Shown one piece after another: positions 3,282 to 60,760 of a stretch of DNA of 64,000 nucleotides (position 1 is the first letter of the stretch; each line of letters starts with the position of its first letter). A program made the translations under genes and the position numbers. Where the stretch lies: positions 1 to 64,000 of IMG/VR virus record IMGVR_UViG_3300020472_000016; one strand, given 5' to 3'. The notes beneath the pieces are model-generated. The model made no database searches. It was not told the origin of the DNA and saw nothing but the letters and a program-made list of their open reading frames with translations. This stretch comes from a virus.

Positions 3282-3288
3282 ATAAATA
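3277..3288 (+). promoter_or_regulatory. Late-promoter-like A/T element
   Basis: GAATAAATAAATAAG overlaps the end of the preceding gene and lies about 22 bases before the next start. It carries two overlapping AATAAATA copies, one mismatch from the T4 late consensus TATAAATA. Confidence 0.4.
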
Positions 3289-3309
3289 AGAAGGGGAAGC
3301 AACTAACAA

Positions 3310-4113: not shown

Positions 4114-4117
4114 TTCT

Positions 4118-4125
4118 TATAAATA
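4118..4125 (+). promoter_or_regulatory. T4-type late promoter (TATAAATA)
   Basis: An exact TATAAATA, the T4 late promoter consensus, sits 25 bases before the ATG of the second adhesin-like paralogue, with the ribosome site GAAGGAGA between them. Confidence 0.65.
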
Positions 4126-4149
4126 ACAAAGAAGGAGACAGAGTAATCA

Positions 4150-4950: not shown

Positions 4951-4951
4951 A

Positions 4952-5482: not shown

Positions 5483-5499
5483 TTAAATTATTTTTCATT

Positions 5500-30782: not shown

Positions 30783-31205
30783 ATGCCTGCCTATAGGTTT
30801 AGATCAGAGAAATTTTTCTCAAGAGCGTTTAAGGATTTCGCTATTTCATTTAAAGCGAACCCAAACACTAAGGATTTTAGTTCTGTCAGTAATGACAATG
30901 CCATAAAACAGTCCGTTCGAAACCTAGTGCTTACAAATTTCGGTGAGAGACCTTTCCAAAATGAAATTGGATCTAGGGTTACTCAAATGTTATTCGAACC
31001 GTTTGATGTGTTCCTACAAGAGGATCTTCGGGATGAAATTAGAAATACTATAGAAAGACTGGAACCTCGTGTCGAGACTGTTTCAGTAGTAGTGAGTTCT
31101 CCAGAGAGCTCATCAATTACTAATGACGTTGACGTTTCTGTTGAGTATAAAATAGTAGGTCAATCACAAGTCCAGAATATCGAGTTCCTATTAGAAAGAA
31201 CCTAA
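30783..31205 (+). CDS. 25: Baseplate wedge protein gp25
   Basis: A 140-aa protein close in size to T4 gp25 (132 aa). It has the hallmark pattern of the GPW/gp25 family: SVSNDNAIKQSVRNLVLTNF, then GERPFQNEIGSRVTQMLFEP, and a closing EPRVETVSVVV strand. gp25 forms the inner wedge core of contractile-tail baseplates and contacts gp6 and sheath. It is directly followed by gp6, one base after its stop. Confidence 0.92.
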   Translation: MPAYRFRSEKFFSRAFKDFAISFKANPNTKDFSSVSNDNAIKQSVRNLVLTNFGERPFQNEIGSRVTQMLFEPFDVFLQEDLRDEIRNTIERLEPRVETVSVVVSSPESSSITNDVDVSVEYKIVGQSQVQNIEFLLERT

Positions 31206-33301: not shown

Positions 33302-36300
33302 ATGTTTGCAAAAACAGTAAATATTTCCGATAGGGTCGAGAATCAACTTCCCGCCTTTATCAGAGAAGAGGATGAACAATTTGTCAATTTCTTATTTGAG
33401 TACTACAAGTCTCAAGAGAAGACAGGTCGTCCATACAATATTCTAAATAATCTTCTTAATTATTTGGACTTAGATGACTATGACCAGAAGGTCTTAGCAT
33501 CAACTACAGTTCTAATTAAAGACGTTGACCCAACAAATACATTAATCGAAGTAGAGTCCATCGATGGATTCATGGATCGTGATGGATCTGTGATGATCGA
33601 TAATGAAGTAATATATTACGAGAACACAGTTCGTGGTCCTGATGCTATCCTCACTCCAGGACTATCATTAGAAGAATTTAATAAGAAAAGACAAGAACTA
33701 GAAAATCCAATTCAGGAATTTGATGGGGTTAGAACTACATTCCCTCTTAATTTCCTAGGTACCCCTGTATCACCTGTTTCTGCTGAACACCTTGCAGTTA
33801 CAGTTTTTAATGTTAGTCAGGTTCCTGGTGTTGATTACTCCATTAGTGGTAGTCAGATTACATTTACTAATCCACCTAGAGCAAGGATCGGTACTGACTC
33901 AGTTGGATCATGTCAGATTGTATATTATATCGGTTTTGCAGATGCTGTCGTTAAGGAATTAACTTATCCTAACGTATTTGATATTGCTGGTGATGATTCT
34001 ATGGCATTGAGCTATGAGAGTCTTTCATATTCACCAATTTCTGAAATTGGTTTGATTGTTAACCGTAATGGTACTCTTCAGCAACCATATATCGACTATG
34101 TGTTGACTGACAACAATAGTAAAATTAAGTTTTTTGTTAATATCACTAATCAGGATAATTTCCATATTCGTTCTATCGAATATGTGTCTGCTTCCTTTGG
34201 TACTGGTGCACATGCAGTTACCAGTGTTGGTGTAAATGGTCAAATTGAGGCAATTAATGTTAAGGAGGGTGGTAAAGGTTATAAACTGAACTTTGCTCCT
34301 AAGGTTGCTATCACATCTAGTACCGAAAAAGGTACTGGCGCAGCAGCGAGGACGTTAGTTGCTGGAATTAAAGATATAAGATTAATTAATGGAGGTCAAG
34401 GTTATACTTCATACAATCCACCGAAGGTTAAGATCACACAACCATCCGATATGGTCAATGGATCTGGTGCTACTGCTTCTATTCAGGTAGATGATACAAC
34501 TGGAACAGTTTCATCTATTAAGATTACTAACTCAGGTTCTGGATATGACTTTATACCTGCCATTACCTTTGTAAATCCAAGTGGTGCTATTATTACAGAT
34601 CCTACCATCGATGGTGAGGGTCGTTTAGACGGTGCATCCATCACAATCACTGATGGTGGTATAGGTTATAGCAATCCACCTGTAATTTACATTGATCCTG
34701 CACCTACAGGTGGTATTGATGCTGTTGCTGATTGTACAGTATCTCCAGATGGTGAAATTGTAGCTGTTAATATCTCAAATAGAGGTCGTGGATACTTAAC
34801 ACCACCTAGAGCAAGAGTTGTGCAACCAATTGGTGCTCAAGTTTTAGACGTTACGGTTGCGAATGGTAGTGTTACTAATATCAACCTCCTAACTGGTGGT
34901 AAAGGATATACAGATGCACCTTCTGTCTACATTGTAGATGATCGTAAGGGTTCATTAGGTGAAGCAATCGGTGGTACTGGTGCTCAAGCAGCAGCAACTA
35001 TCTTTAATGGTGAAATTACTGATATTAACATTATAAATTTTGGATCTGGTTATTCAGATAGTGAACCACCTAAGATTTACGTTGCAGAACCATTAGCAGC
35101 ACAGGCATCTTGTGATGTTGGATTTGGTGAAGTCACTGGATTTACTATTTTATCATCTGGTAAGGAATACGAACCTTCTTCTCTTAACGGATGTTCTAGA
35201 GGAGTATCTGATGTTGTCACTTTTGACAAATACAACAACCAGATCTTTGCAAAAGAGTCACAACTTGCTCAGAGTGACCATGTTTCTGGTTCTTCAGTTA
35301 AAAACCTTGATTCCCAGATTATTAGTAAGGTATTTGACAAGTTCCGTCGTCAATACATGCCTACAATCAATATTGACTACACTCAAGTCAATCCGATTCA
35401 GGTTATTAAGACAATTAAGGATTTCTACCTTGCTAAAGGTACGAAAACTGCTGCACAGTACTTATTTAAGATTCTATTTGGTGAAGAAGTCGATATCTTC
35501 TATCCTAGAGATGAATTAATCAAACCATCTGATGCTTCTTGGGTTGTTGACACAATTTTACGTGCTCAACTGATTTCTGGTAACCCTGCTAACTTGACAA
35601 ATGCTCAATTGGTTCAGGAAGCAGATGTTGTTGACCAAAATGTTAAAGATGCATCGGTTTTGATCGAAAATGTCATTTCCATCATCGAAGGAACTGATAT
35701 CATCTACGAATTAGCAATATCTGAAGAAACTCTGACAGGTGTCTTTAAGATTCCTTATAAAACAGGTCTTGTAGAACCATTAACAACTACAGAGAACATA
35801 ATTACCGTTGACTCGACTATTGGATGGCCCGAAAAGAACGGAACCATCATTATTAACGATCAAGAGATTGTTCAGTACAAAGAAAAGTCATTAAACCAGT
35901 TTATTGAGTGTACTAGGTCTAAAAATGCCATTGTAGAGGATTGGGATCCTGGCACAATCATTTATTCGGACATTTTCGTCTATGCAAACAAAGGAACTGA
36001 TGAAGAAGTCAAATTACGTGTTCTAGGTATCGCAGAAGCGGGTACAACCGTCTTAGAAGACAGTGGTTCCTACTATTTGCCTGGAGATAAGTTAAATGTT
36101 GCTGCTTTAGGTTCTACTGCTGATGATGAGCGTCTACAATCATGGTTATACAACGTTAAGAAGTTAATTAGCGTTACTAGCATCACTCCTGGTGGTCTTA
36201 ACAACCAAACTGCAACTGTTATTACAGGCAATGCCCATGGTTTGCTTGTAGAAGACAAAGTTACCATTTATGGTGCAAACCCTGCTGTCTATAACGGTAC

Positions 36301-39300
36301 ATTTGAGGTTACTGCTCGTCTAGACGACTATTCGTTCTCTTATAGTATACCTACCCCAATGACTATTGTCCCACAGGGTAATATACTACTTTCTGTTGAC
36401 CTGAACCGTGGTAAATCCTCAGTATCAACTATTAATGAGGTAATTTCACTATTCACCTCTAACGTACAGAACTCTTTCTTTAATAACGATTACGTTTACG
36501 TTGCTGCCTCTGGATTGCCCAACTATAAGGTTGGTCCTTTCACTGGGTCTGCTATGATTCCAGGAAACCAGCGTAAACTGCTTCGTTTCCCTAGAACAGT
36601 CTCTACAATCTCCACAAGAACAGAAGTTGCTCCAAATAGTCCAATTGGATCATGGGTTAACGGTGTTTCTGCCTGGTCTTACAAATCTTCCGAGTTTGTT
36701 ACTTTTGGTCCTCTAACTGGTATCAATATCAATAGTGGTGGTGAAGATTATGATGCTGGATCAAAACCAGCACTAGAAATCACTGGTGGTGGCGGTACAG
36801 GTGCTTTAGCGACTGTAACCGTTAATGGATCACTCGATTCAGTCGAAGTTACTGCAGAAGGTACTGGATATACAGAACAACCCCTAATTTCGATTGTTGG
36901 AGGTGGTGGTACTGGTGCTACTGCTCAAGCTGTTGTTACTAACGGTAGAGTAACAAGAATTCTTGTAGAAAACCCAGGAACTGGATATACTGCTCAACCT
37001 ACTATATCAATCACTGGTGGAAACGGTGCTGGTGCCCTCGCTGTTGCCTCTGTAAGAGGTCCAATCAGTGCAGTGACCCTATCTAACTCTGGATCAGGAT
37101 ATACCTCAAAACCGACCATTAAACTGAACTCTGGTGAAGGTGCATTAGCACAACCCATCGTTATCAATGGTAGAATCGTATCTATCGCTATTATTAACTC
37201 TGGAGATGCCTATACTTCAGCACCTAAGGTTTATATCAATGGTGATGGATTTGGTGCTCAAGCAACTGCTATTATTGGAACAATTGGTGAAGATAAAGGT
37301 AAAGTAATCTCAGTATCCATTACTAACAAGGGTGTTGGTTATACCCAAGGTATGACATCCGTTAGAATGGAAGCAATCGGTCAATTAGCAACATTTGCTG
37401 CTGATGTGTACCAATGGAGAAAGAATGTTGAGTATGACTTATCATCTAAGTATGACGTTGCTCGTGGATACGTATTTACGGGATTTAATAACCAATACGG
37501 TGGCGAATACGCTCATGTCTCAGATCCTAAGGAACTACGTTATGTAGTTGGTGATAATGTATTCTTAAATCCTGCCACACAGAATTTCCAAGAAGTTCCA
37601 TCAAATATCGAACACTCTCCTATCATTGGATGGGCATTTGATGGTAACCCAATTTATGGTCCTTATGGTTACATTGATCCAACAGATCAGAACAGTGGCA
37701 TTCGAAGAATGCGTTCCTCTTACACTTTAAAATCAGAAGTTGTATATGATATTGACACCAACCCCACTCCAGCTAGAACTGACGGCCCAGCTCTTGCCAC
37801 ATATCCTGCTGGTAATTTCATCAACGATTATAAGTACACCTTCCAACAAGGAGATCTAGACCCTTACAATGGACGTTTCTGTAAGACTCCAGATTATCCT
37901 GCTGGTACATATGCATACTTTGTAACGATTGACGAGTCAGATGCTGGTATTCCAGTATTCCCTTATGTTATTGGTCCTGAGTACAACTCTGTTGTTGACA
38001 CATGGAACCTTTCACTTAGTGCTGTACAGGAGAACATTCCTGCAGACGTTGCACGTTTCAGAGATCCATATACTAACGTTGATATCGATATTGATCGTCA
38101 ACCTAACCAAGAATCTGATTCATTTGTAACTGAGAAGGAAGGAGACCTTCTTATCTTCGAAATTGAGGATATAGACGGTGATGCTATCATTTCACCTTCT
38201 GAAATTGCTAATGAGCAAGCTATAACTGAGGAAGCTGCTCTAGAAATCTATGATTACTTCCCAAGTGTCTCTACTGAGTCAAGAGTTGACATCGAAGTTG
38301 ATACAACGACTAAATTCGAGAATGCAAGGATTGATGGATTTGTTGTAGAGAATGCTGGTTCTTCTTATCAGGTAAATGACACTTTATACTTTGATAATAC
38401 AGGAACCGACGGTTTTGGTGCTTCTGCTATCATTGAGTCTGTACAGGGACGTACTATTAATGGATATCAGAAAGAAATCATTAATGACATCTCATATGGT
38501 AAAATTACGACTGCAACTGAGCACGAGTTAGTAGCACAGGATGAGATCATCGTTAATTCGAGAGTTATCACTGATAACACGAATAAGCGTTTCTATATGT
38601 CTGTTGTAACAGGTATCGAAGATATTACCGTTACTCAAGTTGGTATTGGTTATAATACTCAACTTCCACCGACATATGAGATTATTACCTCTCAAGGACA
38701 GGATATTAACTTTAATATCATCCTAGACGAGACTACAGGTAAAGTTGGTGAAGTTAACATCATTAACTCTGGTTATGGGTATGATGTAGACAATCCACCT
38801 CAAATTAGGGTTTCACATCCTCAACAATACAAGAAAACTTACTATTGGTTGTCTGAGTACTATGAAGCTGCTGGAAGTATAGAAATATTCGATATTGTAA
38901 TGGCAACTGACCGTTACATGTATGTTTGTGGTGAATTAACTCAAACTAATGGTGATACTGCTGCATTCCTTGCTAAGTTCACCGATTTGGGTGTAATGGT
39001 CTGGGATAGAACCCTTCTACCTAGTGCATCTATTAAGAAGGCACGTTGGAAGTCTATTTACCTTGATGAGACATCTGAAGAGAATAATCTTCTGTATATG
39101 ATTGGTGAAACCGAATCTCAAGGTACTGCGACATATAATCCAGATATTTTGATTGCTAAGTACGAATCTGGGTTTGATAACTCTAATGCACCTGAAGGTA
39201 TTGTTAGATGGCAGAAAGAGATCGCTGGTGTCTCTGGTGCAGCACGTAGAGACTATGCTGGTGACATCTTCATGGATGACGAGCAAAGAGTCTATATTTG

Positions 39301-42300
39301 TGGTTGGACAGACACTAATGCTGTAGATGCCTATGATATTTGGGTTATGCAGCTCAATAACACTGGTGATGTTGTTGAGAAGAGAAAATTCGCTTCTAAT
39401 AGCGAAGGTGAGAGAATGGAGCAACTCCATTACATCGGAAACAACAAGATGCTCTGGTGTGGTGTTGATCAGGACAATAATGACCTCATATTCGGTGAAA
39501 TGGAGTACGATGGTGCTAACATCGAACTCAACTATGTTAAGAGACTTGCTATAAGTGGTGGTGACGTAAAACGTCCTCGTTTCCAGATTGATGAGTATAA
39601 CGATCTCTTCTTTATCTGCGATATGTGGAATGGAACCAAATTCTATGGTTGTTCCTTCCTTAAGATTGCTTTAAATCAACTTTCCACAAACCCAACAACT
39701 CCTGAGTACTATTTCTCTAAGACTATCCAACCTAGTGGTAATTTTGAGTCTATTAATCATGCAGGACTCAGTATTGATGTATTTGGTAACGTTAGTATCG
39801 CTACTGATGTTAAGTACAGTGATAATGACTTACAAGCGGTTGTTATGTCGTTTAAGTACGATGGAACCCTTCTTAAGAGTACTAATATTAAGGATACTGA
39901 TGATATTGGATTTAAGACAAGAAATCATATTGTAGATAACTCTGGTGATGTTATTATTGCTGCTAATAAGCAGAAACCAATTCAGACAGTAGTCAATCGT
40001 TTTGATTCTGCACCTATCTCCTTTGCTGGTGATATTGCTTCTGGTGCTGCAACTGTTACTAATGTAAGTAATGCTACTAGTCTTGCAACTGGAGATGTTG
40101 TCTCAATCACCAGTGGTGCTGGATCAGTAACCCTTGCTGCTGGTGTAAAAGTTCTAACAGCAACTGGAACTACAGTAACTTTAGACACTAATTTCGGTGG
40201 TAGTGGATCTGCCACAGGTGCTATCCTTTCTGCAGTAGATGTTAGTGGTCTTATAGAAGATAGTAGTAAGCAAGCAAATACAACTGCTACCTTCTCAGAT
40301 GTAACTAAAGTCATGCATAACACTGCAGACTATAAGTTTGGTAGTGGGTCACTTAAGTTCTCTGGTGGTCCAACCTATATGAAGCATGCTGGTGCAGGTC
40401 TAACAAGTAATTGGACTGCTTCTGTATGGAGTTTGATGGAAGCATCTCATGCTTCTAACAACCCTAAAGTTGAGATGATCACTATTGATGATGCTTTAGG
40501 AAACGGTATAGTAGTAACAGTAGATGGTAATGCTGCTAGTGGTAACTTAGGTAAGATCGAAATGACCATCGCACCTCAGGGTGGTGGTGGATCAACTATT
40601 GCTTCTGTTGGATCTACTTATTGGACAACTTTACAAGATAGTGCATTCCACCATTGGGCAGTAGTTAAAGAGACACCTTCTCTTGGTTCTTACACCTACT
40701 CTGTTTATTTTGACGGTGTTCAGGTATGTACAGCAACTGTTGCAACTGAAATTGGTCTTAATGATCTTTATATTGGTGCTAATAAGACTTCACCTGCTAC
40801 TGGTAACTGCTTCTTAGGTAGTATCGATGATGTAGTTATCGAACCTAACTCAGTCTTTACTGGTGCTTCATTTACACTACCAACAACTCAATTTGCTATT
40901 ACCTCTAATAATTCTCAACTCAATCTAATCAAATTTGATAGATTACATGATAAGAGAGGTGCTTATAGTGCATTCCCATCAACAACATATACTAAGGCAT
41001 TAACATTTACAGAGACTAGTGGAATCAATGTTAACAATCTTACTAATCCTGTAATCACAGTTTGGGCAGAAGGTTCCTCTGGTTTACAGATCCTTGACAT
41101 GTCAGATACTATATCAACTCTGGCACCAGGAACTTATACATTTACCAATGCAACTCATCAATTTGCTTCTAAGACCTCTACAGTACCTTCACCATTAGGT
41201 GTAAAACTAAAAGTAGATGCTATTGTCATACCGAAGTACTATGTTAGAGATGCTGGATTCCAGAAGATTGATAACGTATTAGAATTCCAATTTAACCAAG
41301 ATGTCAGGTTTACTAAGGGAACTATACTACAGCAGTATAATTCTCAGGGTGTTGTACAGGCATATGGTACTATTGTTGAGGTTCCAACTGGTACTCTAGA
41401 TGAACCAGGATTGGGTGATAAGTATAAGATTGGTAAGATGTTTGGTAACTTTAATGATACCGATCTCTTTAAGAACAATACAGGTGAAGAAAATATAATT
41501 AAAGACGTAATTTTCCAGCCAGAACGGGCACAGGCCGAATGGTTAACTGCTACAGCATATACCACAGATGATCAGGTTTGGAGTGATGGTAAGATCTATA
41601 AAGCAACTAATACTGCTACTTCTGGTGCTACTGCTCCTACCCATGAGATTGGTAACGTAACTGACGGTTCAGTTATATGGCAATACATCAGTGCTGCTGG
41701 TCCTATAGAAGTTGCACTAATAGATCATCCATGGCCAGTTCCTTCCGAACCACTATGGCAAGCAACTAAATCTTATGCTCTTAATGACTTAGTTTACTTT
41801 GGTAGACAGAAGTATAAGTGTACAACTGCTGGTGTAACAGGATCTGTTGCTCCTACTCATACTAGTGGTACTGCTACTGATGGTACTGTGGTCTGGACAT
41901 GGCAGTCTCAATATGATTCTATACATGCTTATGCTAGATTCCGTCCATATGATGCTGGTGATTATAAGGTTAAGATCCTAGAAGTCTATAGTGGATCTGA
42001 CTTTATAGTTGGTGACGTTATCTCACTTGGTGGATCTGTAACTACTGGTCCTAAAGAAGGTGATCCTAAGATTGGTCAAATTAATGGTGTAACTACTGTT
42101 AAGAAGGTAGAATATGTTGTAAATCTAGATAAGGACATTATTAGAAGTGCTAATACACGTACTGACCTTATCTACTGTCAAGCACTATCTCCTCATAGGT
42201 TCCTTGCTGGAGATATCCTCTTTGTAGAAGGATTTACTACTGCACAGTTTAATGGTTCATTCTTCGTAGAAGAAGTGTTCTCTTCTAGAGACTTCCTCTA

Positions 42301-54300: not shown

Positions 54301-57300
54301 AGAGAAGCAATGGACTCCTAGTGCTGCTGCTTACTCACCAACAACAGGTGTTATGGATCTGACTATTGGTGCTCATAATTTCCGTGCTGGTGCATCATTA
54401 ACACCTTCTAACGCTGACTATAACCCAACATCAGGTATCATGAGATTGACCATTGCTGGTCATAACATTGCTGAAGGTGAGCATATTAAGATTGCTGATA
54501 ATGCACTGACATTCACATGTACATTAGATGGTGGTAGTGCACAGAAGACATATCCAAGACCTTCTACTATTAGTCACACAGCAACTACTGGTACTACACA
54601 TGATCCTTCTACAGGTATCTTACATATCAATACTACGTCTGCACATGACCTAACCAATGGAGATTGGGTTAAGTTTGCTGACAACTCCTTGACATTTACT
54701 TGTGGTTTAGATGGAGATCAAACCAACCATTCTTATCCTAGGGCAGATGACCCAATGAGCGGTAAGTGGGTACAGATTTCTAATGCTACTGCTAGTGGAT
54801 TTGATGTACAAGTTCTAAACTCAATACCTCAGTCTAATACTTCTACTCACGTATTCGTATCTGCTACATCTAATGGTATCCAAACTAGAGACCCCTTCAG
54901 TGGTCGTTGGATGGAAGTTAGAGAAGTTGGTACAGATTGGATTGATGTTAAAGTTCTAACTACTGCACCTTCTACTAATACTAATCCACACACCTTCATA
55001 AGTGCTGCTGCTAATTGTATCCAGACATCTGGTGACTCTGTAAGAATCTCTGCAAACTCTATTACCTTCACATGTAATAAGGACAGCAATGCTACTCAGC
55101 ACACATACCCAAGAGCAGCAATGAATGCTGCTGGTGGTGCTGACCCAGTATATAACGGTGCTGCTAAGATTGTTGCTGTTACTGATACTACTATCAGTGT
55201 ATGGGTTGGTACTTCTGCTAACACTACATCGCACTCCTTTGTTTCTGCTGCTGCTAATGCAGTTAGATCTGGTGGTACATATACACACAACTTTGCATCT
55301 GCTGATGCTAATGGTCTTTCACAACAACGTGACTGGGCACATAACAACTACATTCCAATTTCCGATGTAACTACTAACACATTTAGTGTACAGTTACTAC
55401 AGAAGATTCCTTCTACTAATACTACTACACACGTATTCCAGTCTGCTGCTTCTAATAGCATTCATAGAGGTGTTATACAGAAACAAAATGGATGGATCCA
55501 ACTTAATGTTGGTACTTCATCTAATACTTCATGGCATGGATTTAAGTTCGCTGATTCTGGTGCTCTGATAAGTGGTGGTTACTATGATCACTCATTTATA
55601 TCTGCATCTACAGGTGCTGTACATACAGGTGGTGACTATATTCACGACTTTGTATCTGCTGTCACTAATGGTATTACCAGACAGAATCCTTCAGGTATAG
55701 TAACACTTGATATTGGTGCTTCTGGACCTAATGATCAGTATACTCATACCTTCGTATCTGCTGCTAACGGCGCATTGATTACTGGTGGTAACTATGCTCA
55801 CAAGTTTGTATCTGCTACAGACCGTGCATTGGTAAGTGGTGGTAATTATGAGCACACATTTGTATCTGCTGCATCTAACTCAGTTAATGTAACTGGTGGA
55901 TCTCAGTTAACTCCAACTAATGCTGCTTATGATCCTCTAACTGGTCATCTAACATTGACCTTTGGTTCTGCTCATGGGTTGACTGCTAACATCAATACAG
56001 TCACAATTGATAACAACGCAATACAGTTCTCTTGTGAATTTGATGGTAATTCATCCACTCATGGATATCCAAGATCAACTGATCCTGCTTCGGGTACAAC
56101 TTTAACTATAATTTCTAACACAACAGATACTATTACTGTTAATATTGGATCCACTCCTGAGGTTAACTTTAACGTAACCGACGCTACCTATGATGCTGGT
56201 ACAGGTAACCTAACACTTGATATTGGGTCTAATAGTCTACAAGGTCCTACACTTGGTTTAACACCTACTGATGCCGCTTACAACCCCACTACAGGTATCA
56301 TTACACTTACTATCAACGGTCATGGATTCGCTAACGGTGAATACATTAAGATTGCTGATAATGGATTAACTTTCACTTGTACTCAAGGTGGTGGCAACCA
56401 CTCATATCCAAGAGTTACTGACCCTGCATCTGGTAAGTGGTTAACAATTTCTAATGTACAGACAAATACATTTGATGTACAGGTATTAGATACAGTTCCT
56501 TCCACCAACACAACAACTCATACACTGGTTAGCATTGCTAATGGTTGCGTTGATAAGGCAGGTGAATCTGTCATGGTTAGACCTAATTCTTTGACCTTCA
56601 CATGTCAACAGGATAACTACTCTACTAACCATACATATCCTCGTGCTAAGGATCCATCATTCGATAGACCTATTCCTATTGTTGGTAAGTCTGGTCAGAC
56701 TATTACTATCGATGTTGGTAACTCTGCCATCGTTACATATACTCCAACAAATGCAACATATGATGCTGCAACTGGATATCTAGCAGTAACAATTGGTGCA
56801 CACGGATTGTCAACAGGAACTACTGTTAAGTTGGCACCTAACTCCTTTACATTCACATGTACAAGAGACGGCAATACTGCTCAGAAGACATATCCTAGAG
56901 GTGGTCATACCTTCGCTCAGAAGTTCTATGCTGATCTTGACTTCTATCCTTACAATCAAGGTGAATATGTAATCACTGCTGATACTGCTAATCCTAAGTG
57001 TGCTGACGTAGCATCTGCTATTACATCCTTGATGGGTCTGTATACTGATGCTATTGCTACACCTGCAAGTCTAACTGACGGTACTATTAGTAAGACTCTA
57101 CCAAATATTTGGCCAGTTAAGTACGCTTCAGAAATGGTAATGCGTGATGTTAGTGTCACCTTCGATCAGAATGGTGCTACTACTGGTGATTGGAATACTA
57201 CTTGTGTTGGTGTTGCAGATAAGATCGAAGGATTGATGGATATTGTCATCAATACTATAGAACTTGCATCTGGTGGTGGTGGTAGTCACTTAGATGCTGT

Positions 57301-60300
57301 AGAACGTGAAGTTCCATGGAGATTTAACAACAACTATCAGTTCTATACATGCTATAACGTAACATCAGCAACTGACACACTCTTTGATGTATTGTTAAGT
57401 ACTCTTGGTGGTGGTTCTAAATCTGATAAGCATTGTGCACGTCACATACTCTTTAATTATCATGCTATTACTGCTAAGGCATTTGAGAGAACTCAAAATA
57501 ACCATCCAGATACTACAGCAGATATAACATTTGCTGAGAATATGGTAAAGGCTTTGATGTACGACCTGAATACAGGTGGTAACCAAGGTATGCTGAAGTT
57601 AGCTAACTCTTGGTTCGATGGTGAAGGTAACTTCATAGCATTCGGGAATATCGTTAGACAGCACTTACTCTTCTATGTTACACGTATACGTGAGTATGTT
57701 AAACGTGGTTTATATGACTACAACAATGATACACAGTGGGCAGGATATGATCTATATCTAGAACCATCCAATACTGCTGCTATTAATAATAGATTTGAGT
57801 ATGAGAAGGAATCTACAGAATTTACAATTGATAGTTCTATCAACCTTGCATTCCATGCACTGAATAGATCTCAAGCACCTTCCACTAATAAGATTGATTA
57901 TATCAATAGTGATAATATCACTAACATGACTAATGTATATGATGAAGGTGAAGATTATAATACTGATCCAGAATTGATCCTATTGACTCCAACTATTGAG
58001 GTTGGATTTGAGAGAAGAGAGAACACTGTAACAGTACATAAACCTAACTTCTTCTCACGTGGTGATGTCCTTGCATACGTTCCTGCTTCTCAGGATTTGG
58101 ATCCTAATTTACAGGATCAGGAATACTATTATGTCCTTAATGCTGAGGCAGATTACTTCGAAGTTACTCGTGAGAAGCGTCATGATGCAAGATATAGACA
58201 GTTTGCATTCGATCAATCTTTAAAAGGTCAGCAAAGATTGCAGACAGTTGTACGTACTGGTATCAATATGCCAGCAATGGTTTCACCTGTAAGGGATAAC
58301 GCTCAACCAATTAGTGCTGGATTTAACACTGCTGATTATCTAGTTGGATCTACTTCTAATGCTTCTTCTGAGGTTGTTCGTACAATGAACAATGAAGCAG
58401 ATATCATTAAACTCTATAAGAAGTTTAATATAGACGCAGCAACTGGTAGGTTTACTAATGGTGAGACCATACAAGTACAGGGTGCAACAGCTAATAACGG
58501 TATTGTTGTTCAGACTTCTGCGTTAACAGGTGATCAGAGCAATGAAGGGTGGATATATGTTGAGGATATGAATGGAACATTCTCTGATAATGATGTATTA
58601 GAGGGTGTAACTAGTGGAATCACTAATGCTGTTAATGGTACTAGTGTTGAGCGTATGCTAATTAACACCTCTAGAGGTGCATTTAAGCAAGATGAGAAGA
58701 TCTTTAACAAAGGTAATAGTGCTGAGGCAGACATCGTTAAGTATGAAAACTCTGCTGGTGCTCTTGTAGGTAACAGTGGTGGACGTATTACTATCGATAT
58801 CGAAACTATCCAAGATGACTTTACTGATGGTGACGTTATCTATGGTTCTATAACTGATAAGATCCTTGATATAGCATATATCACTGCTACTGGATTCGAA
58901 GAACTAACTCTTAACCAGTACGTACATGCAGAATCTCAGGTAGAATGTGATGTAAATAACATCATTCGTGATGGTGGATATGCAGGAAACTTTACTGCTG
59001 GTGATGTAGTTTATCTCCTCGCAGGTACTACCATTAAGCAACCAGGATTCACTGCTGTTGTCACTAAGTATCAAGCATTTGATGATAGTGTTACTCCTAA
59101 CATCCCACATAAGATTTGGATTGCAAACCTCAGACCATATGGAACTAACTCTCAAGGTGAGGTAGTTACACCTGATCCTCAGGAGTTAGCCTCTGGTGGT
59201 ACTGCAATTGGTAAGTTTGAGAACCTCAATAACTTCCCAATTATCCTCGCTGAGATGAGTAGTGTAACAGTCACTAACTACAATTCTTACGGTAGGGTTT
59301 CTGGTAAGGATATTACTGGTGACACAGGTAGGATTTGGTTGGAAGATGTTGTAGGAGATTTCCCAAGCAATATCACAATTAAGTCTGATGCTGGTTGGTA
59401 CGCTGGTGTTACTCAATCTAAGGGTCTAGTTGGACGTTGTAACAGATTCTTTAGAGGATTTGATGGTACACAAACATCCTTTAAACTTACTACAAATAAC
59501 GGAGAAGCATACTTCCCAGATCCTGCTGGACACCTATTGGTATTCACTAATGGTGTTCTACAACCTCCAGGTGGTACACAAGCATACACAGCATTCTCTG
59601 ATCAGATTCAGTTCACTGAACCTCCAACAATCGGTTCTGAGTTCATCGGATACTACGTTGGTAAACTTAGACAGTTGGATGATATCAGCTTTGAGTTTGA
59701 CTCGTTACGTTCATCCTTTAACCTCAGGTACGCTGGTGGATTCTACTCCTTGACACTGACTGAAGGTGTTTCTTCTAGCACTATACTTCCAGAAAACAAC
59801 ATTGTTGTTTCTCTGAATGGTGTTATTCAGGAACCTGGAGTTGGTTATGAACTGGTTGGTTCACGTATCATCTTCGCTGAAGTTCCTCGTGCGGGATCAA
59901 CATTCGTTGCATTCTCCTATATTGGTTCTGACGCAGACGTTATTGCTGCTACAGTCGTACCTCCAATTGAGGCAGGAGACTTATTACAAATTGATGGAGA
60001 AGGAGAGAATCGTGAAGTTGCTCTAATTGAGTCTTCTAACTCTTTGATTACCTTCGAGTACACAGGAACTGTTAAGGGTCGTGGTGCTGCAGCACTTGCT
60101 CAGATAACCTCTGGTGAAATGACAACAGCAATTATCACCTCTCCTGGTGATGGTTACTCTTCACGTCCAAACGTTGATGTTATATCATCTTCTGGATTTG
60201 ATGGTCGTGTTCGTGCTCTAATGGGTCTCTTGAGGATTGATGTTAAGACTGCTGGTGTTGGTTACGCTCAACCACAAGTTGCAATCCACAACGTTGTTGA

Positions 60301-60760
60301 GGATGACTGGACTGCACCTGAAGGTCCTGCTATGAACGGTGGTTATGACACCTACGCAGGTGAGGGTACTGACCAAGATGGTAATCCAATCGTAATCGTT
60401 GATGGTTATATAACTATCACTTCACAACCTGTTAACGTAACAGTTAACCAAGGTCAAATGGCAGGATTTACTGTACTCGCTACGTTTAATCTTTCATCTG
60501 ATGGTTCTGTAGGATCTACTCCTCTGAACTACCAGTGGCAACGTAAGCAGTATGGTGAGACCACATGGGCAAACATAACAGGTGCTACAGGTGGTGTTTA
60601 TACTACTGACTCTGCTGAACAGGCAGACGATGGTGATGAGTTCCGTGTAGCAATAACTGCTGCTGGTGCTTCACCTGTTTACTCTAACTCTGTAATCCTC
60701 TCGGTACAGACTGGTGCAACAGTTATTTCTAACTTCGTACCAACTCAAATATTCCAATAA
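33302..60760 (+). CDS. Giant baseplate/adhesin protein, 9152 aa
   Basis: A single uninterrupted frame of 27.5 kb at the position where gp7 or VrlC-like genes follow gp6 in T4-like phages. Residues 1-130 (NISDRVENQLPAFIREEDEQ) and 690-750 (FYLAKGTKTAAQYLFKILFG) look like a wedge-binding N-terminus. Then follow: GYT-type glycine repeats (about 307-620, 1138-1350, 3180-3410), a YHYH-like domain (about 1393-1560), a probable beta propeller (1850-2225), LamG/concanavalin-like folds (about 2337-2517 and 5140-5300), two chitin-binding-like WxxxxxY modules (2744-2870), three copies of an LNGV-P fibre module, seven Cys/GGN helical units, 23 YPR repeats, and a C-terminal Ig-like domain (about 9034-9140). 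T4 gp7 is 1032 aa. Likely a baseplate-anchored host-binding arm. Confidence 0.85.
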   Translation: MFAKTVNISDRVENQLPAFIREEDEQFVNFLFEYYKSQEKTGRPYNILNNLLNYLDLDDYDQKVLASTTVLIKDVDPTNTLIEVESIDGFMDRDGSVMIDNEVIYYENTVRGPDAILTPGLSLEEFNKKRQELENPIQEFDGVRTTFPLNFLGTPVSPVSAEHLAVTVFNVSQVPGVDYSISGSQITFTNPPRARIGTDSVGSCQIVYYIGFADAVVKELTYPNVFDIAGDDSMALSYESLSYSPISEIGLIVNRNGTLQQPYIDYVLTDNNSKIKFFVNITNQDNFHIRSIEYVSASFGTGAHAVTSVGVNGQIEAINVKEGGKGYKLNFAPKVAITSSTEKGTGAAARTLVAGIKDIRLINGGQGYTSYNPPKVKITQPSDMVNGSGATASIQVDDTTGTVSSIKITNSGSGYDFIPAITFVNPSGAIITDPTIDGEGRLDGASITITDGGIGYSNPPVIYIDPAPTGGIDAVADCTVSPDGEIVAVNISNRGRGYLTPPRARVVQPIGAQVLDVTVANGSVTNINLLTGGKGYTDAPSVYIVDDRKGSLGEAIGGTGAQAAATIFNGEITDINIINFGSGYSDSEPPKIYVAEPLAAQASCDVGFGEVTGFTILSSGKEYEPSSLNGCSRGVSDVVTFDKYNNQIFAKESQLAQSDHVSGSSVKNLDSQIISKVFDKFRRQYMPTINIDYTQVNPIQVIKTIKDFYLAKGTKTAAQYLFKILFGEEVDIFYPRDELIKPSDASWVVDTILRAQLISGNPANLTNAQLVQEADVVDQNVKDASVLIENVISIIEGTDIIYELAISEETLTGVFKIPYKTGLVEPLTTTENIITVDSTIGWPEKNGTIIINDQEIVQYKEKSLNQFIECTRSKNAIVEDWDPGTIIYSDIFVYANKGTDEEVKLRVLGIAEAGTTVLEDSGSYYLPGDKLNVAALGSTADDERLQSWLYNVKKLISVTSITPGGLNNQTATVITGNAHGLLVEDKVTIYGANPAVYNGTFEVTARLDDYSFSYSIPTPMTIVPQGNILLSVDLNRGKSSVSTINEVISLFTSNVQNSFFNNDYVYVAASGLPNYKVGPFTGSAMIPGNQRKLLRFPRTVSTISTRTEVAPNSPIGSWVNGVSAWSYKSSEFVTFGPLTGININSGGEDYDAGSKPALEITGGGGTGALATVTVNGSLDSVEVTAEGTGYTEQPLISIVGGGGTGATAQAVVTNGRVTRILVENPGTGYTAQPTISITGGNGAGALAVASVRGPISAVTLSNSGSGYTSKPTIKLNSGEGALAQPIVINGRIVSIAIINSGDAYTSAPKVYINGDGFGAQATAIIGTIGEDKGKVISVSITNKGVGYTQGMTSVRMEAIGQLATFAADVYQWRKNVEYDLSSKYDVARGYVFTGFNNQYGGEYAHVSDPKELRYVVGDNVFLNPATQNFQEVPSNIEHSPIIGWAFDGNPIYGPYGYIDPTDQNSGIRRMRSSYTLKSEVVYDIDTNPTPARTDGPALATYPAGNFINDYKYTFQQGDLDPYNGRFCKTPDYPAGTYAYFVTIDESDAGIPVFPYVIGPEYNSVVDTWNLSLSAVQENIPADVARFRDPYTNVDIDIDRQPNQESDSFVTEKEGDLLIFEIEDIDGDAIISPSEIANEQAITEEAALEIYDYFPSVSTESRVDIEVDTTTKFENARIDGFVVENAGSSYQVNDTLYFDNTGTDGFGASAIIESVQGRTINGYQKEIINDISYGKITTATEHELVAQDEIIVNSRVITDNTNKRFYMSVVTGIEDITVTQVGIGYNTQLPPTYEIITSQGQDINFNIILDETTGKVGEVNIINSGYGYDVDNPPQIRVSHPQQYKKTYYWLSEYYEAAGSIEIFDIVMATDRYMYVCGELTQTNGDTAAFLAKFTDLGVMVWDRTLLPSASIKKARWKSIYLDETSEENNLLYMIGETESQGTATYNPDILIAKYESGFDNSNAPEGIVRWQKEIAGVSGAARRDYAGDIFMDDEQRVYICGWTDTNAVDAYDIWVMQLNNTGDVVEKRKFASNSEGERMEQLHYIGNNKMLWCGVDQDNNDLIFGEMEYDGANIELNYVKRLAISGGDVKRPRFQIDEYNDLFFICDMWNGTKFYGCSFLKIALNQLSTNPTTPEYYFSKTIQPSGNFESINHAGLSIDVFGNVSIATDVKYSDNDLQAVVMSFKYDGTLLKSTNIKDTDDIGFKTRNHIVDNSGDVIIAANKQKPIQTVVNRFDSAPISFAGDIASGAATVTNVSNATSLATGDVVSITSGAGSVTLAAGVKVLTATGTTVTLDTNFGGSGSATGAILSAVDVSGLIEDSSKQANTTATFSDVTKVMHNTADYKFGSGSLKFSGGPTYMKHAGAGLTSNWTASVWSLMEASHASNNPKVEMITIDDALGNGIVVTVDGNAASGNLGKIEMTIAPQGGGGSTIASVGSTYWTTLQDSAFHHWAVVKETPSLGSYTYSVYFDGVQVCTATVATEIGLNDLYIGANKTSPATGNCFLGSIDDVVIEPNSVFTGASFTLPTTQFAITSNNSQLNLIKFDRLHDKRGAYSAFPSTTYTKALTFTETSGINVNNLTNPVITVWAEGSSGLQILDMSDTISTLAPGTYTFTNATHQFASKTSTVPSPLGVKLKVDAIVIPKYYVRDAGFQKIDNVLEFQFNQDVRFTKGTILQQYNSQGVVQAYGTIVEVPTGTLDEPGLGDKYKIGKMFGNFNDTDLFKNNTGEENIIKDVIFQPERAQAEWLTATAYTTDDQVWSDGKIYKATNTATSGATAPTHEIGNVTDGSVIWQYISAAGPIEVALIDHPWPVPSEPLWQATKSYALNDLVYFGRQKYKCTTAGVTGSVAPTHTSGTATDGTVVWTWQSQYDSIHAYARFRPYDAGDYKVKILEVYSGSDFIVGDVISLGGSVTTGPKEGDPKIGQINGVTTVKKVEYVVNLDKDIIRSANTRTDLIYCQALSPHRFLAGDILFVEGFTTAQFNGSFFVEEVFSSRDFLYRMRNAADSEPVFYNNAIFNVKISSKHPTLMLVRNHSYVFDMSDASNFGYFLSFSQDNQFKLEYSFNVIERSGTPGLSSNTETPIVNFTIGGEVTNITYYFDPSRTLSSNSPVGTNSFIDVIKTPYDGTFKIAEVISETEFRFPLEIEPEFNNAEIGLDDQDNPNSYYSTTSTKAIGPINTIKLISPGGFYRKLPIISDIASDRKIEKIKIKNGGTEYAVGVYTQVPIIGDGEGGLCIITVELDVETNSGTITDVNLTDPGKGYTFGSIDVDGITGILGSTLSGSGGELDVVIPDEGTGASVFLTGTEIGKIKTLKNNEFGYGYSHDYTLRPEIAFPVNLQLFNTSILSEIKITDPGAGYTSAPVVVISGGGGLGADAEAIVKNNRLSEIIVKDPGAGYSSQPSVLLKSEFTYVVNLDLNYLQFNFPHGITTGAAIQFRAEDIGSDVGELPKPSSVGLTSLSSTTIYYAIAGNVAGLESDQLRFALTPADSESGNYITFLTQGNGRQVLLTEVFGGKAEAVVETSRFLESEEVFQGETYELANAFGTVSTNDGWQIGPKILKVVNPKGVFVKGGKVQGVISRASGIIDNVQIAKGILNIDAITKTSGRFIDDVGKPSEIVQKIQDSYFYQNFSYVIKSQIPINRWKKQILENNHPAGFNMFGQLELTGGKDISGRKIGTEFTKQVNIDEYTNVNQITSFGAAQPIYSTFNNSEVLFRKKRLTNSEEILTSIVKKIDSISDQFDGATKAFNLTVEGDQVIIKENQMLVTLNGVIQSPGEAYQIVGNQIVFAEAPRPDSKVIYRNVDITVLPIKRLNLTQIGGIFPQIGDIITSKFNNVNSSAKVIDTSTNTVDIIQIIGTTFVNNARVDVSRTGFSAFIGSIDDVNQSTIFEFGETVTKVDLAGETAIIEETNLDLDGNLDNSLVLSKTSGTAQYETGAYNILLNDVIYSAGSKIAAQVTGISPYRDPVTSINLAQAVAFEEDQLITGGSSGAQALVVRVDAEANPPVLYYVKKNTPDFVDGETVTNQNAVNGVISGEPKVGDVVDTLIINKGSSFFGLVFERLISLSNQNVILDNISETTISPVELNNAANRINADFLDYEEVRSTEIEYSGLSGGSLAVNDVIRSINVTYGNPVTDALNRYKDAARSIRNNRQEIIDFATSQIAIDYPGFYHTGDNQIAQMGRFKDAYRLIQKNKEWIIAKSYDEMITQYPGTTIPSATKCKRDLGYFIDALSRDTGWGGTVYTRKLCNMFFPDGSTFQYVNSQANEINYGYGKAYDHMVEALTNTLSGSETIDSVAYTKYNEQSTGGSGGSGITADPSPGDNYGTSGSNATNNGPNNCADVTAALNTLWTNVSEVILSASLTDLIDLSQPVALTPLETKCTRDTGYFIDAIADDLDGDGNYYMVEFTKKFFNTDGVFIGLPETQEAITAFNAAKDLCKNAMRNIMYEQTLATAGYNLNDPTTYSAPYLNSSSTAQYYDPNYSSGSNQGGTNCANVATAIDTLANIATTSFTGAQFTPSAASYTAATGDLILTIGSHSLTTADTVRIEPNSLTFTCAMDGNTANKTYPRSSDPTYNQQIAITAVGATTITVNVGASPIVNHTVTGATYDPVSGVMVLTIGAHTLGVGESIKIATGSLTFSCDQGGTVGTGTYPRSTGASTGDGEDYAYDTAIEITAKTDTTITVNVNGGQGAVTNTNAHTFVSATPNGIQSGGNYTHTFVSAGTNSVSEGGGLAYINSLATVTDGTYEEGENIRVYKFAYKDRAGLGFFTPGDTIKGHKSEANFSCKGANSGLRWLYTNALTGTFQNREYITNTKLTNVAGASNVTVTPTNATYDAATGHLTITVAAHGFSTGNEVSIAANAIRFTCGMDANATQHDYPRLTDPVANNVRLPIIKTTASTFTVNVGSSPLKHYTPTGVDYQPDTGVMSITIGPNNLNVGEKIRFKPESLVFTCDQDGNQTEHAYPRSSDPFYNTSCNIDGITSSTYSITGASYLPAKGTLNLTIANHGFSNGEMIKIADNSLTFTCTNDNNATNHTYPRTTDPASYQWLPISVVDNNTIGVQIGVSTDISVHTFVSATSNNITKQDGGVIVVNVLNSSPSTNTTLHTFVRGEDAIITGGDYAHTFVSAVSNSFTVYPAKARLTSLDKRSGSNSLVLESNAYLTHDLSDVNAFGSSNFTVEMWIKAKAVTGGQYLFDFRTSGLSETGSLSLYLDGGSIKLAYDSADVISGSHGISAGTWTHVAVSKTSGITKVWVGGVQVGTDYSDSNTYYERKITIGAAQDGANFYQGHIDNFIITKGVSKYQASFTPPVIFTTNDDISFSMSNEHPIIMSDKDSYATFTGTTNSAAAAKKVNYANKEIIVEDVQLSRDEHRRAADMLELNRAWIAETAVNKMKAKYPDLLMPGDTADGIGPQQGTTFCLRDTQEFILKGIIDDIRYGGNYNSTIAARSYLTAYEGLEHIANEVLQSIYTYRELAPICNYVLTTTSTDLENYGVDGDGNPIKYTDILRIPNNFSSPIAQTIQDEIVALGDEIGDIIGPTGQRFRDAGDMIWKNRDVIANEAVGWLEATYQKDINGTVYDFYTNPNANANKCTHEIKTYILPAIVADLVTGGNSGIRNVTAKFLNANGELYSVDNELSAVLDVYEYVGKLCKHAINNTLVTKGSTAAELGVPSEYQDDYHVNEYTELTVYRDDTITIDSEGYNAFRTSNDRLLDAADMLERNANVIAWEAVHTMNDLSKYLNFGVPDGAQNCVDDVLDVLGAVVHDIRKGGNSKTWDAASLYLNKEDKSLIQLNGRQHTHQYVRSELDAIYTGGNYDHTFVTAATNAVVDDGSNNFTPTNVVYTPGDGKLVITMPNHGLATSNTITIAEESLTFTCSMDEHASKHKYPRKGDPAYGKSIAILETTISTITVNVGASPIVNYNVSNADYNAVTGDLTMNVGAHTLQPGTSIRFRDGALTFSCDRDDYATEHSYPRISDPVYNTSVNVSSVGTTTSTPTDASYDTSTGIVTITQNGHGFTGETTASTSDAAYNPNTGIMTITSNGHGFAAGDSVKIAGNSLTFTCGFDGDLSNHTYPRSTDPAYNSWLPVLNVTTNTFDVQVLKEIPSTNVTVHTFVSATASNITKANDYVMIDENALSMSCDTGSGAQTKTYPRPQDPAYKAWLPISNVQLNTFDIQVLSTVPSTNTNAHTFVSFASNGLSRQTGNITVNVGVAPGEDAAAISVLKLATEMAIMTMRNAFGRENLYIFDPEPDPDGDTTPAGGDESIDNVDVESYERNAVKDRFINAADLIERNIRLIAEESIAAALVQYPSLNIPGGNINCVHDLTDFLDSMVWNLRHGGNNKVFHAAEYYVNEGLTHNTEATWITNYARDLAIQVMRNESLALNYGRDPAFDTAVPIVSVASTQHTATDASYDAGTGLLTLTVAGHGFAEGNRVNIADNSLTFTCSMDGNYSNHTYPRLSDPVSNQWLPIISTSTDTFTVNVGVSRIKKFTPTAISYEPNTGNLIMTVGVHDLAVGTNLKIEPNSLTFTCAMDNGATNHTYPRITDPVHDEPIEIVGVTETTVTVNVGTTGITNFDIHDAEFNPTSGQLDINIGAHTFREGESVKLGTNALTFTCAMDSHATDHAYPRASGPGGPDAGYNTSISIDKIGLDTYDITNAGYNPTTGVMTVTIPSHGFKGRTTHTPTGVEYTPATGKMIISLANHGFQNDDRVKIGQNGLVFTCGMDGHTTNHAYPRNYNSSAPGGEDYAYDKWLHVTNVTQNTFEVNVGVSSNQTEHTFVNSVTNCLTHAGDHVKVCTKAIGFKCTKDGNSTTHSYPRQSDPSYDEWLPVTNAGTDTFDIFVGFSGPNDNYTHTFAANTDLTPTNAAYDPNSGKMTLTVNDHGMQNGDTIWIEDGAVTFRCGEDSQSSDHAYPRNITDTFTITGATYDAAAGVMECTVANHGFGNGAMVKFAPGSIKFTCSMDNYDTTHAYPRHDDPIADKWIPVFNVETNTFQVRVGQSIEKQWTPSAAAYSPTTGVMDLTIGAHNFRAGASLTPSNADYNPTSGIMRLTIAGHNIAEGEHIKIADNALTFTCTLDGGSAQKTYPRPSTISHTATTGTTHDPSTGILHINTTSAHDLTNGDWVKFADNSLTFTCGLDGDQTNHSYPRADDPMSGKWVQISNATASGFDVQVLNSIPQSNTSTHVFVSATSNGIQTRDPFSGRWMEVREVGTDWIDVKVLTTAPSTNTNPHTFISAAANCIQTSGDSVRISANSITFTCNKDSNATQHTYPRAAMNAAGGADPVYNGAAKIVAVTDTTISVWVGTSANTTSHSFVSAAANAVRSGGTYTHNFASADANGLSQQRDWAHNNYIPISDVTTNTFSVQLLQKIPSTNTTTHVFQSAASNSIHRGVIQKQNGWIQLNVGTSSNTSWHGFKFADSGALISGGYYDHSFISASTGAVHTGGDYIHDFVSAVTNGITRQNPSGIVTLDIGASGPNDQYTHTFVSAANGALITGGNYAHKFVSATDRALVSGGNYEHTFVSAASNSVNVTGGSQLTPTNAAYDPLTGHLTLTFGSAHGLTANINTVTIDNNAIQFSCEFDGNSSTHGYPRSTDPASGTTLTIISNTTDTITVNIGSTPEVNFNVTDATYDAGTGNLTLDIGSNSLQGPTLGLTPTDAAYNPTTGIITLTINGHGFANGEYIKIADNGLTFTCTQGGGNHSYPRVTDPASGKWLTISNVQTNTFDVQVLDTVPSTNTTTHTLVSIANGCVDKAGESVMVRPNSLTFTCQQDNYSTNHTYPRAKDPSFDRPIPIVGKSGQTITIDVGNSAIVTYTPTNATYDAATGYLAVTIGAHGLSTGTTVKLAPNSFTFTCTRDGNTAQKTYPRGGHTFAQKFYADLDFYPYNQGEYVITADTANPKCADVASAITSLMGLYTDAIATPASLTDGTISKTLPNIWPVKYASEMVMRDVSVTFDQNGATTGDWNTTCVGVADKIEGLMDIVINTIELASGGGGSHLDAVEREVPWRFNNNYQFYTCYNVTSATDTLFDVLLSTLGGGSKSDKHCARHILFNYHAITAKAFERTQNNHPDTTADITFAENMVKALMYDLNTGGNQGMLKLANSWFDGEGNFIAFGNIVRQHLLFYVTRIREYVKRGLYDYNNDTQWAGYDLYLEPSNTAAINNRFEYEKESTEFTIDSSINLAFHALNRSQAPSTNKIDYINSDNITNMTNVYDEGEDYNTDPELILLTPTIEVGFERRENTVTVHKPNFFSRGDVLAYVPASQDLDPNLQDQEYYYVLNAEADYFEVTREKRHDARYRQFAFDQSLKGQQRLQTVVRTGINMPAMVSPVRDNAQPISAGFNTADYLVGSTSNASSEVVRTMNNEADIIKLYKKFNIDAATGRFTNGETIQVQGATANNGIVVQTSALTGDQSNEGWIYVEDMNGTFSDNDVLEGVTSGITNAVNGTSVERMLINTSRGAFKQDEKIFNKGNSAEADIVKYENSAGALVGNSGGRITIDIETIQDDFTDGDVIYGSITDKILDIAYITATGFEELTLNQYVHAESQVECDVNNIIRDGGYAGNFTAGDVVYLLAGTTIKQPGFTAVVTKYQAFDDSVTPNIPHKIWIANLRPYGTNSQGEVVTPDPQELASGGTAIGKFENLNNFPIILAEMSSVTVTNYNSYGRVSGKDITGDTGRIWLEDVVGDFPSNITIKSDAGWYAGVTQSKGLVGRCNRFFRGFDGTQTSFKLTTNNGEAYFPDPAGHLLVFTNGVLQPPGGTQAYTAFSDQIQFTEPPTIGSEFIGYYVGKLRQLDDISFEFDSLRSSFNLRYAGGFYSLTLTEGVSSSTILPENNIVVSLNGVIQEPGVGYELVGSRIIFAEVPRAGSTFVAFSYIGSDADVIAATVVPPIEAGDLLQIDGEGENREVALIESSNSLITFEYTGTVKGRGAAALAQITSGEMTTAIITSPGDGYSSRPNVDVISSSGFDGRVRALMGLLRIDVKTAGVGYAQPQVAIHNVVEDDWTAPEGPAMNGGYDTYAGEGTDQDGNPIVIVDGYITITSQPVNVTVNQGQMAGFTVLATFNLSSDGSVGSTPLNYQWQRKQYGETTWANITGATGGVYTTDSAEQADDGDEFRVAITAAGASPVYSNSVILSVQTGATVISNFVPTQIFQ
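34220..35160 (+). repeat. Glycine GYT-type repeats, first block
   Basis: Encodes about seven units of I-V-NGG-GYT--P-V-I with gaps filled by GTGA-A-A; for instance LINGGQGYTSYNPPKVKI and ITDGGIGYSNPPVIYI. Diverged at DNA level. It encodes part of the giant protein. Confidence 0.7.
36715..37350 (+). repeat. Glycine GYT-type repeats, second block
   Basis: Encodes five or more regular units such as VEVTAEGTGYTEQPLISI and ILVENPGTGYTAQPTISI, each followed by GGGGTGA-A or GGNGAGA-A. The regular 40-residue spacing suggests a beta solenoid. Confidence 0.75.
42840..43540 (+). repeat. Glycine GYT-type repeats, third block
   Basis: Encodes a weaker set of the same units, ending with a clear pair: KITDPGAGYTSAPVVVIS and IVKDPGAGYSSQPSVLLK. 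Confidence 0.65.
45700..57650 (+). repeat. Seven Cys-D-GGN helical units spread through the giant gene
   Basis: Encodes units with the core C-RD--YFIDAI--D---GGN---A---YL, e.g. at about 45960, 46440, 49555, 50070, 50550, 52255 and 57540. Each is preceded by a helix with DAADMLERN---IA-EAV---- in the better copies. They alternate with the YPR repeats. Confidence 0.65.
46840..56920 (+). repeat. YPR repeat array in the giant gene, 23 copies
   Basis: Encodes 23 copies (my count) of a beta-type unit of about 80-100 residues: TPT-A-YDP-TG-MTLTV, HGF--GD-V-IA-NSLTFTC, -MDGN-TNHTYPR-TDP, then WLPI-NV-TNTF-V-VG and HTFVSA--N-I. Blocks lie at about 46840-48700, 50800-51930 and 52500-56920. Copies are diverged but keep the Cys, YPR and HTFVSA. 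Confidence 0.8.

Follow-up and report, generated by a model that had tools for sequence, protein, structure and literature searches.

A 9,152-residue protein at the gene-7 position of a cyanomyovirus baseplate locus contains seven phycobiliprotein-like modules

The 64,000-nucleotide stretch of virus DNA analysed here (the window) is part of an 81.5-kb metagenomic IMG/VR contig and contains a single frame for a 9,152-aa protein, seven helical modules of which are phycobiliprotein-like in sequence profile and in the fold predicted for them. Descent of the modules from cyanobacterial phycobiliproteins is most likely. The best explanation we can offer for the whole, probable in our judgment with ample room for doubt, is that of an adhesion arm anchored in the baseplate wedge of a cyanomyovirus, at the position held in T4 by gene 7, with its phycobiliprotein-fold modules bearing bilin at Cys84.

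Is a frame of this length to be believed? It runs uninterrupted from ATG to stop (33302..60760, + strand), starting 4 bases past the gp6 stop codon at 33297. The contig being metagenomic and the gene rich in repeats, a suspicion of assembly artefact, or of a gene that is split in reality, would have its footing there. Against it, an independent contig (G033) encodes a protein of likewise 9,152 aa that aligns without a gap over all 9,152 residues at 92.5% identity, and another (G001) has one of 9,151 aa, 94.0% identical to the window protein with one 1-aa gap; these two IMG/VR contigs are near-exact matches to the window giant. The dN/dS of window versus G033 is 0.17 overall and 0.11–0.24 across all 1,000-codon bins, that of window versus G001 is 0.22, and each 1,000-codon bin of the two comparisons gives about 0.3 or less, so the full length of the giant is under protein-level selection. 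With cultured orthologues of 6.2–8.6 kaa at the same locus, and virion peptides from one of them, artefact or split is scarcely conceivable and, as far as present data reach, already refuted: the 9,152-aa frame is real, neither a chance ORF nor an assembly join. The sequence-only reading that preceded this work had claimed one intact 27.5-kb frame, which the full-length homologues and the dN/dS in every bin bear out, and about nine times the length of T4 gp7, which is correct (9152/1032 = 8.9).

The locus, and the giant outside its helical modules and beta repeats, are laid out as follows.

30783..31205, + strand: gp25-like baseplate wedge gene (phrog_261)
31207..33297, + strand: gp6-like baseplate wedge gene (phrog_219)
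33302..60760, + strand: the giant, a baseplate protein at the gp7 locus (one open frame of 9,152 aa)
35312..35767, + strand: putative wedge core, aa 671-822 (hhalign to HTVC008M gp055)
35411-35503, + strand: T4 gp7-like signature, aa 704-734 (hhalign to T4 gp7 730-760)
37493..37933, + strand: YHYH domain, aa 1398-1544 (PF14240, 5.4e-29)
38828..39961, + strand: region earlier called a propeller, aa 1843-2220
40367..40840, + strand: LamG-like domain 1, aa 2356-2513 (PF13385, 7.1e-8)
41537..41629, + strand: CBM_5_12-like segment, aa 2746-2776 (PF02839, borderline at 26.1 bits, cut-off 26.2)
48797..49186, + strand: LamG-like domain 2, aa 5166-5295 (PF13385, 1.9e-14)
57905..60757, + strand: C-terminal part, aa 8202-9152, which is conserved and Ig-like at its end (60368-60757)
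60774..62372, + strand: 532-aa virion structural protein with a YHYH-type segment in common with the giant (phrog_25852)
62398..63897, + strand: baseplate wedge / tail fibre connector of gp9/gp10 type (phrog_677)

The giant gene thus sits between gp6 and other wedge genes, as T4 gene 7 does, and orthologous loci agree, the order in cultured cyanomyoviruses being gp25 - gp6 - giant - gp9/gp10-type genes - gp8 - VrlC-type gene. The 1,032-aa gp7 of T4 likewise follows gp6, as does the 1,016-aa gp055 of the SAR11 phage HTVC008M, where gp25 precedes too. Homology of the latter to the giant extends over 150 residues (aa 671-822; hhalign prob 96.6, E 5e-10), and the N-terminus of the giant also matches rhizobial, pelagibacter and methylophilales phages. 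With T4 gp7 itself the hhalign match (prob 72, E 3e-5) is a 31-residue signature only, the motif common to both being FYxxKGxxxxxxxLFKxLxxEEVxI; a family-profile search of the PDB had T4 gp7 as its top match, but at E 0.07. We read aa 671-822 as a probable gp7-type core that grew an arm, its likeness to T4 gp7 limited to the signature; unlike gp7 the giant has ~8,000 extra residues. That the protein is baseplate-linked, as had been proposed, is upheld by the order gp25-gp6-X-gp9/10-type connector-gp8, by the gp7-type signature and by an orthologue in purified virions. The accompanying equation of gp7 with VrlC finds no support. The VrlC-like protein of cyano- and pelagimyophages is, like the giant, large and of the baseplate region, and the same contig has its own gene for it, a separate one of 2,454 aa after gp8; hhalign of VrlC against the giant gave prob 1.9, no relation, and none to T4 gp7 was detected either. 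The absence of a profile match and the presence of this gene elsewhere in the contig rule out that the giant is VrlC.

Other genes in the window include a 547-aa tryptophan-halogenase-like gene (5500-7143; phrog_2928, 7e-147), four 2OG-Fe(II) oxygenase-like genes (phrog_81; 7618-8292, 8273-9067, 12442-13092 and 24508-25218) and one for a 1,375-aa protein with a major-head-protein-like segment (25632-29759; phrog_22792), which neighbours a gene with a PAAR motif immediately upstream of gp25. There is also a tail-fibre-assembly-like gene (3310-4113; phrog_863), though the nearest isolates are reported to be without long tail fibres (PMC9146016).

By sequence the giant belongs to phrog_701 / T4-GC969, a family already known, and is longer than the cultured members: the phrog_701 profile (6,136 positions, ‘virion structural protein’) is matched end to end, from position 3 to 6134. 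Orthologues in cultured cyanomyoviruses are these.

P-RSM6 (CPXG_00128): 8,573 aa
P-TIM40: 7,351 aa
S-WAM1: 6,737 aa
S-SZBM1 (S-SZBM1_208): 6,619 aa
ACG-2014d: 6,817 aa, more distant
Syn19 (Syn19_088): 6,483 aa, more distant
S-SM1 (S-SM1_102, = GC969): 6,180 aa

The first four, which are the closest isolates to the window virus, are colinear with its giant from N- to C-terminus and have the same modules, and six of the cultured genomes (those four, Syn19 and S-SM1) share both the locus and phycobiliprotein-like modules. Complete IMG/VR frames at the locus range from about 6.4 to 9.6 kaa; a longer lineage, represented by contigs G029, G030, G035 and G008 and ~54% identical to the window protein, has members of 9,458, 9,461, 9,489 and 9,580 aa, and the window protein is therefore not the longest of its family. 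Within a lineage, length is near-constant (9,151/9,152/9,152; 8,573/8,576/8,580; 7,073/7,074). The giant had been presented as a single one; orthologues in isolates and the longer IMG/VR members, which reach 9,580 aa among the frames surveyed, rule out its uniqueness. Two studies place the family in virions: S-SZBM1_208 (6,619 aa, 724 kDa) yielded 71 LC-MS peptides, 13.5% coverage, from CsCl-purified particles (PMC9146016 Table 1), and in virions of S-SM1 the gene cluster T4-GC969 was detected (PMC3037559), of which S-SM1_102 is a member.

The mosaic of modules that the sequence-only reading had described fared unevenly. Its YHYH domain is firmly matched by PF14240 and its lectin-like parts are recognizable as the two LamG domains. 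Chitin-binding likeness comes down to the one borderline CBM_5_12 site; the appearance of two CBM sites was due to this one being seen twice in overlapping pieces. The Ig module, at the C-terminal end, matches PDB tail and Ig-like proteins weakly (E about 7e-4), and the supposed propeller, aa 1843-2220, has no Pfam or PDB sequence match. Given the carbohydrate-binding-type modules, the suggestion of a host-binding arm is plausible. What had been overlooked are about 24 beta repeats and the seven phycobiliprotein-like modules, which are interspersed (modules between aa 4184 and 8132).

45851..46132, + strand: module 1, aa 4184-4277, Cys4221, CKRD
46334..46612, + strand: module 2, aa 4345-4437, Cys4381, CTRD
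46844..48508, + strand: beta-repeat block 1, aa 4515-5069
49415..49726, + strand: module 3, aa 5372-5475, Cys5419, CLRD
49928..50245, + strand: module 4, aa 5543-5648, Cys5591, CTHE
50438..50719, + strand: module 5, aa 5713-5806, Cys5751, CVDD
50801..51868, + strand: beta-repeat block 2, aa 5834-6189
52145..52417, + strand: module 6, aa 6282-6372, Cys6320, CVHD
52511..57025, + strand: beta-repeat block 3, aa 6404-7908, where the gene varies in length
57431..57697, + strand: module 7, aa 8044-8132, without the Cys and Asp

The beta repeat is ~85 aa long (consensus ...YNPTTGVLTLTIGNHGLTAGDSVKIADNSLTFTCDQDGNATNHTYPR...) and is present in about 24 near-complete copies, each having a single conserved Cys that stands within FTC and precedes an Asp and a YPR motif (46844-57025). 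Its AlphaFold model is all-beta (pLDDT 87); a search of PDB chains with the model gave no match of note, and iota-carbonic anhydrase, a weak profile match to the repeats, has no single stretch that passes. Relatives have from 0 to 27 copies. Across 22 genes protein length follows the number of residues in beta repeats with r = 0.97, and pairwise alignment places most of the length difference among close relatives in aa 4512-7866. The cultured phrog_701 / T4-GC969 giants whose repeats were counted have at most 19, as against the 24 near-complete ones in the window, and it is because of its additional repeats that the window giant is longer than its cultured relatives.

For the helical modules, sequence and structure comparisons point the same way. 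A Pfam scan of pieces of the giant gave weak matches to PF00502 (phycobiliproteins, comprising phycocyanin, phycoerythrin and allophycocyanin), a family matched singly by 18 of 35 diverse modules, at best with 4.7e-6. A profile built from the 35 modules, run against 177,635 PDB sequences, had 157 matches with E no greater than 10; the 60 that were listed are phycobiliproteins without exception, the best of them phycocyanin alpha (E 6.7e-8). In profile–profile comparison by hhalign with 49 cyanobacterial sequences gathered from a CpcB query, mostly of CpcA and CpcB types, the modules scored prob 96.3 (E 1.8e-9); controls reached at most 1.2 (30 column-shuffled profiles), 0.2 (reversed) and 0.2 (two unrelated profiles). 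Three modules in succession were modelled with AlphaFold from phage sequences only and with no templates, and the model has moderate confidence (pLDDT 74, pTM 0.67). With it Foldseek, searching 350,542 PDB chains, found among its 50 best matches 49 that are phycobiliproteins or smURFP, an engineered protein that binds the bilin biliverdin, and one hemoglobin; match probabilities were 0.99–1.00 and TM-scores on the target 0.57–0.77, with E-values that are modest (0.017 and up). Could the likeness be a chance or convergent one between helical bundles? Single modules do score near or under the Pfam cut-off, but profile, profile–profile and structure searches agree in picking phycobiliproteins alone among helical families, profiles that are shuffled, reversed or unrelated yield nothing, and the beta-repeat model put through the same structure search came back without a match of note, which makes chance or convergence very improbable. 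Helix order and predicted fold are shared with phycobiliproteins, as are the motifs N...I, PG, C-x-x-D and GG, spaced correspondingly, and the Cys84 and Asp87 positions. Unlike them, the modules are of ~95 aa, stand in tandem inside a virion protein and have no N-terminal helices; the profile match begins at phycobiliprotein residue ~30-38, short of a full-length subunit with alpha/beta assembly. A non-exhaustive search of the open-licence literature, subscription papers being outside its scope, turned up no earlier description of virion proteins of phages that contain phycobiliprotein domains.

Cys84 is the bilin-attaching cysteine of phycobiliproteins, and Asp87 is conserved with it at the bilin site. 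The invariant Cys of the modules aligns with the former and the residue at +3 with the latter. Among 22 giants, Cys is present in 127 of the 130 modules having a residue at the Cys84 column; D or E is at +3 in all 127 Cys-bearing modules, while just 3 of 24 modules without Cys have D there. Counted over the set of 150 modules, Asp is at position 87 in 124, and Arg86 is kept in 73. Six of the seven window modules have Cys with an acid at +3, the acid being E in module 4. Most of the 24 Cys-less modules are the last, C-terminal one, and the counterparts by position of module 7 in the other listed giants likewise have neither Cys nor Asp. The fold thus tolerates loss of the Cys at the C-terminal module, and its retention elsewhere suggests function. 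We regard the six Cys-bearing modules as candidate bilin-attachment sites, a tentative assignment from sequence, with bilin binding falling somewhat short of an even prospect. For S-SZBM1 the module-cysteine peptides include the following.

YPDFVMPGDNPTGTGVQQGTNFC(4798)LR
YSAVINDTQYDFLEIPGFNGDAVC(4965)AR
C(5125)TSDVMGVIDAIIHDLR

Module matches number 7 to 10 in most giants; ACG-2014d and Syn19, which are more distant, have 5 and 3. With one module as tblastn query, 346 of 50,697 phage records were matched, and 345 of these are named Synechococcus or Prochlorococcus phages or cyanophages, the other being an unassigned marine single-cell virus. The module profile finds no modules in T4, HTVC008M, Sinorhizobium phage phiM12, P-SSP7, Ma-LMM01, S-CRM01 and P-SSM2, nor in S-SM2 and S-SSM7, so that T4 and HTVC008M differ in this from the window. 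PF00502 itself matches seven records, the very ones in which the module profile does find modules, and among 14 control genomes it is found in Synechococcus elongatus only. Other tail proteins have the modules too, among them gp7 of P-HM2 and, in S-PM2 and Syn1, the ‘short tail fiber protein’. (As an oddity, S-PM2 as deposited has 16 annotated tRNA genes, most of them in one run, that lie within the coding frame of its module-bearing ‘short tail fiber’ gene and share its strand, at 168556-173383, L163 8557-13384.) CpeT (PF06206), the T-type bilin-lyase family, is encoded in 18 of 18 module-bearing and 0 of 4 module-less genomes among the 22 complete cyanomyovirus genomes tested, and in S-PM2 and Syn1 cpeT is just upstream of the module-bearing fibre gene on the same strand. 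On a gp20 tree this co-occurrence needs just about two changes, and it is therefore suggestive and not strong proof. Phage bilin reductases (PF05996) are not concordant with the modules, P-SSM2 having a reductase without modules, and S-PM2 and Syn9 modules without a reductase; a link between the two is not borne out. Synechococcus hosts produce bilins themselves.

How, then, might such a protein work? In the explanation we prefer, the N-terminal wedge core would hold the giant in the baseplate and the remaining ~8,000 residues would form a long modular arm, its shape and its binding to the host being our inference, made up of carbohydrate-binding-type modules, a spacer of variable length provided by the ~85-aa beta repeats, and the seven phycobiliprotein-fold modules. 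Bilin would be attached at Cys84 of six of them, with a CpeT-type (T-type) lyase of the phage, or lyases of the host, doing the loading. Conservation of Cys is by itself no proof of a chromophore, and bilin on cyanophage virions is so far unobserved. The modules may have the phycobiliprotein fold and no bilin, being host phycobiliprotein sequences co-opted as domains for binding or as rigid spacers, with the Cys used for disulfides between modules, for metal binding or for packing, and this we consider nearly, though not quite, an even proposition. Module 7 manages without Cys, the chromophore-contact Arg86 is missing in half of the modules, and the ~24 beta repeats of the giant also have one conserved Cys each, as if single cysteines were put to structural use in general. 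Less easily accommodated are the keeping or losing of Cys and the +3 acid as a pair (127/127 versus 3/24) and the co-occurrence of the modules with the bilin-lyase family.

Alternatively the giant may simply be a long host-adhesion arm replacing long tail fibres, with the helical array incidental to that task. Its LamG, YHYH and CBM-like modules speak for this, and long tail fibres are reported missing in S-SZBM1, S-WAM1, P-RSM6 and P-TIM40, the closest isolates (PMC9146016), a fit with a giant arm that has taken over adhesion. Conservation of chromophore-Cys modules, and this in cyanophages only, would then be left without explanation. We judge the matter evenly balanced. An adhesion arm of this kind is compatible with the bilin-bearing one that we prefer, and the two are not exclusive.

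Cyanophages carry genes for bilin synthesis and attachment, the purpose of which is debated. For Prochlorococcus, which lacks phycobilisomes, a review has called the benefit of the bilin synthesis genes unclear (PMC2984593). Another puzzle is that adsorption of several marine cyanomyoviruses is light-dependent, and poor or nil in the dark (PMC2984593, PMC7112961), as has likewise been reported for the freshwater AS-1 (PMC2984593). P-HM2 cannot adsorb in the dark while P-SSP7 is able to infect there (PMC7112961); P-HM2 has modules and P-SSP7 none, and a pair of phages from different families gives a lead and not evidence of cause. It is speculative that a pigment on the arm would serve light-dependent adsorption, photoprotection or docking. 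The fuller proposition, that cyanomyovirus particles bear covalent bilin on modules of baseplate or tail-fibre arms, loaded by the phage CpeT-type lyase, and that adsorption or tail firing is light-responsive, we put forward as an unlikely one.

What is new here is the phycobiliprotein-like array, the giant itself being a longer member of a known family. If the proposition is true, we would, as far as could be found, be looking at a virus that builds the fold of its host's photosynthetic antenna into its own particle, and chromophore-Cys domains in a virion arm would link the puzzle of the bilin genes with that of adsorption in the dark. Both could then be tested directly with phage stocks, and even with mass-spectrometry data, that already exist.
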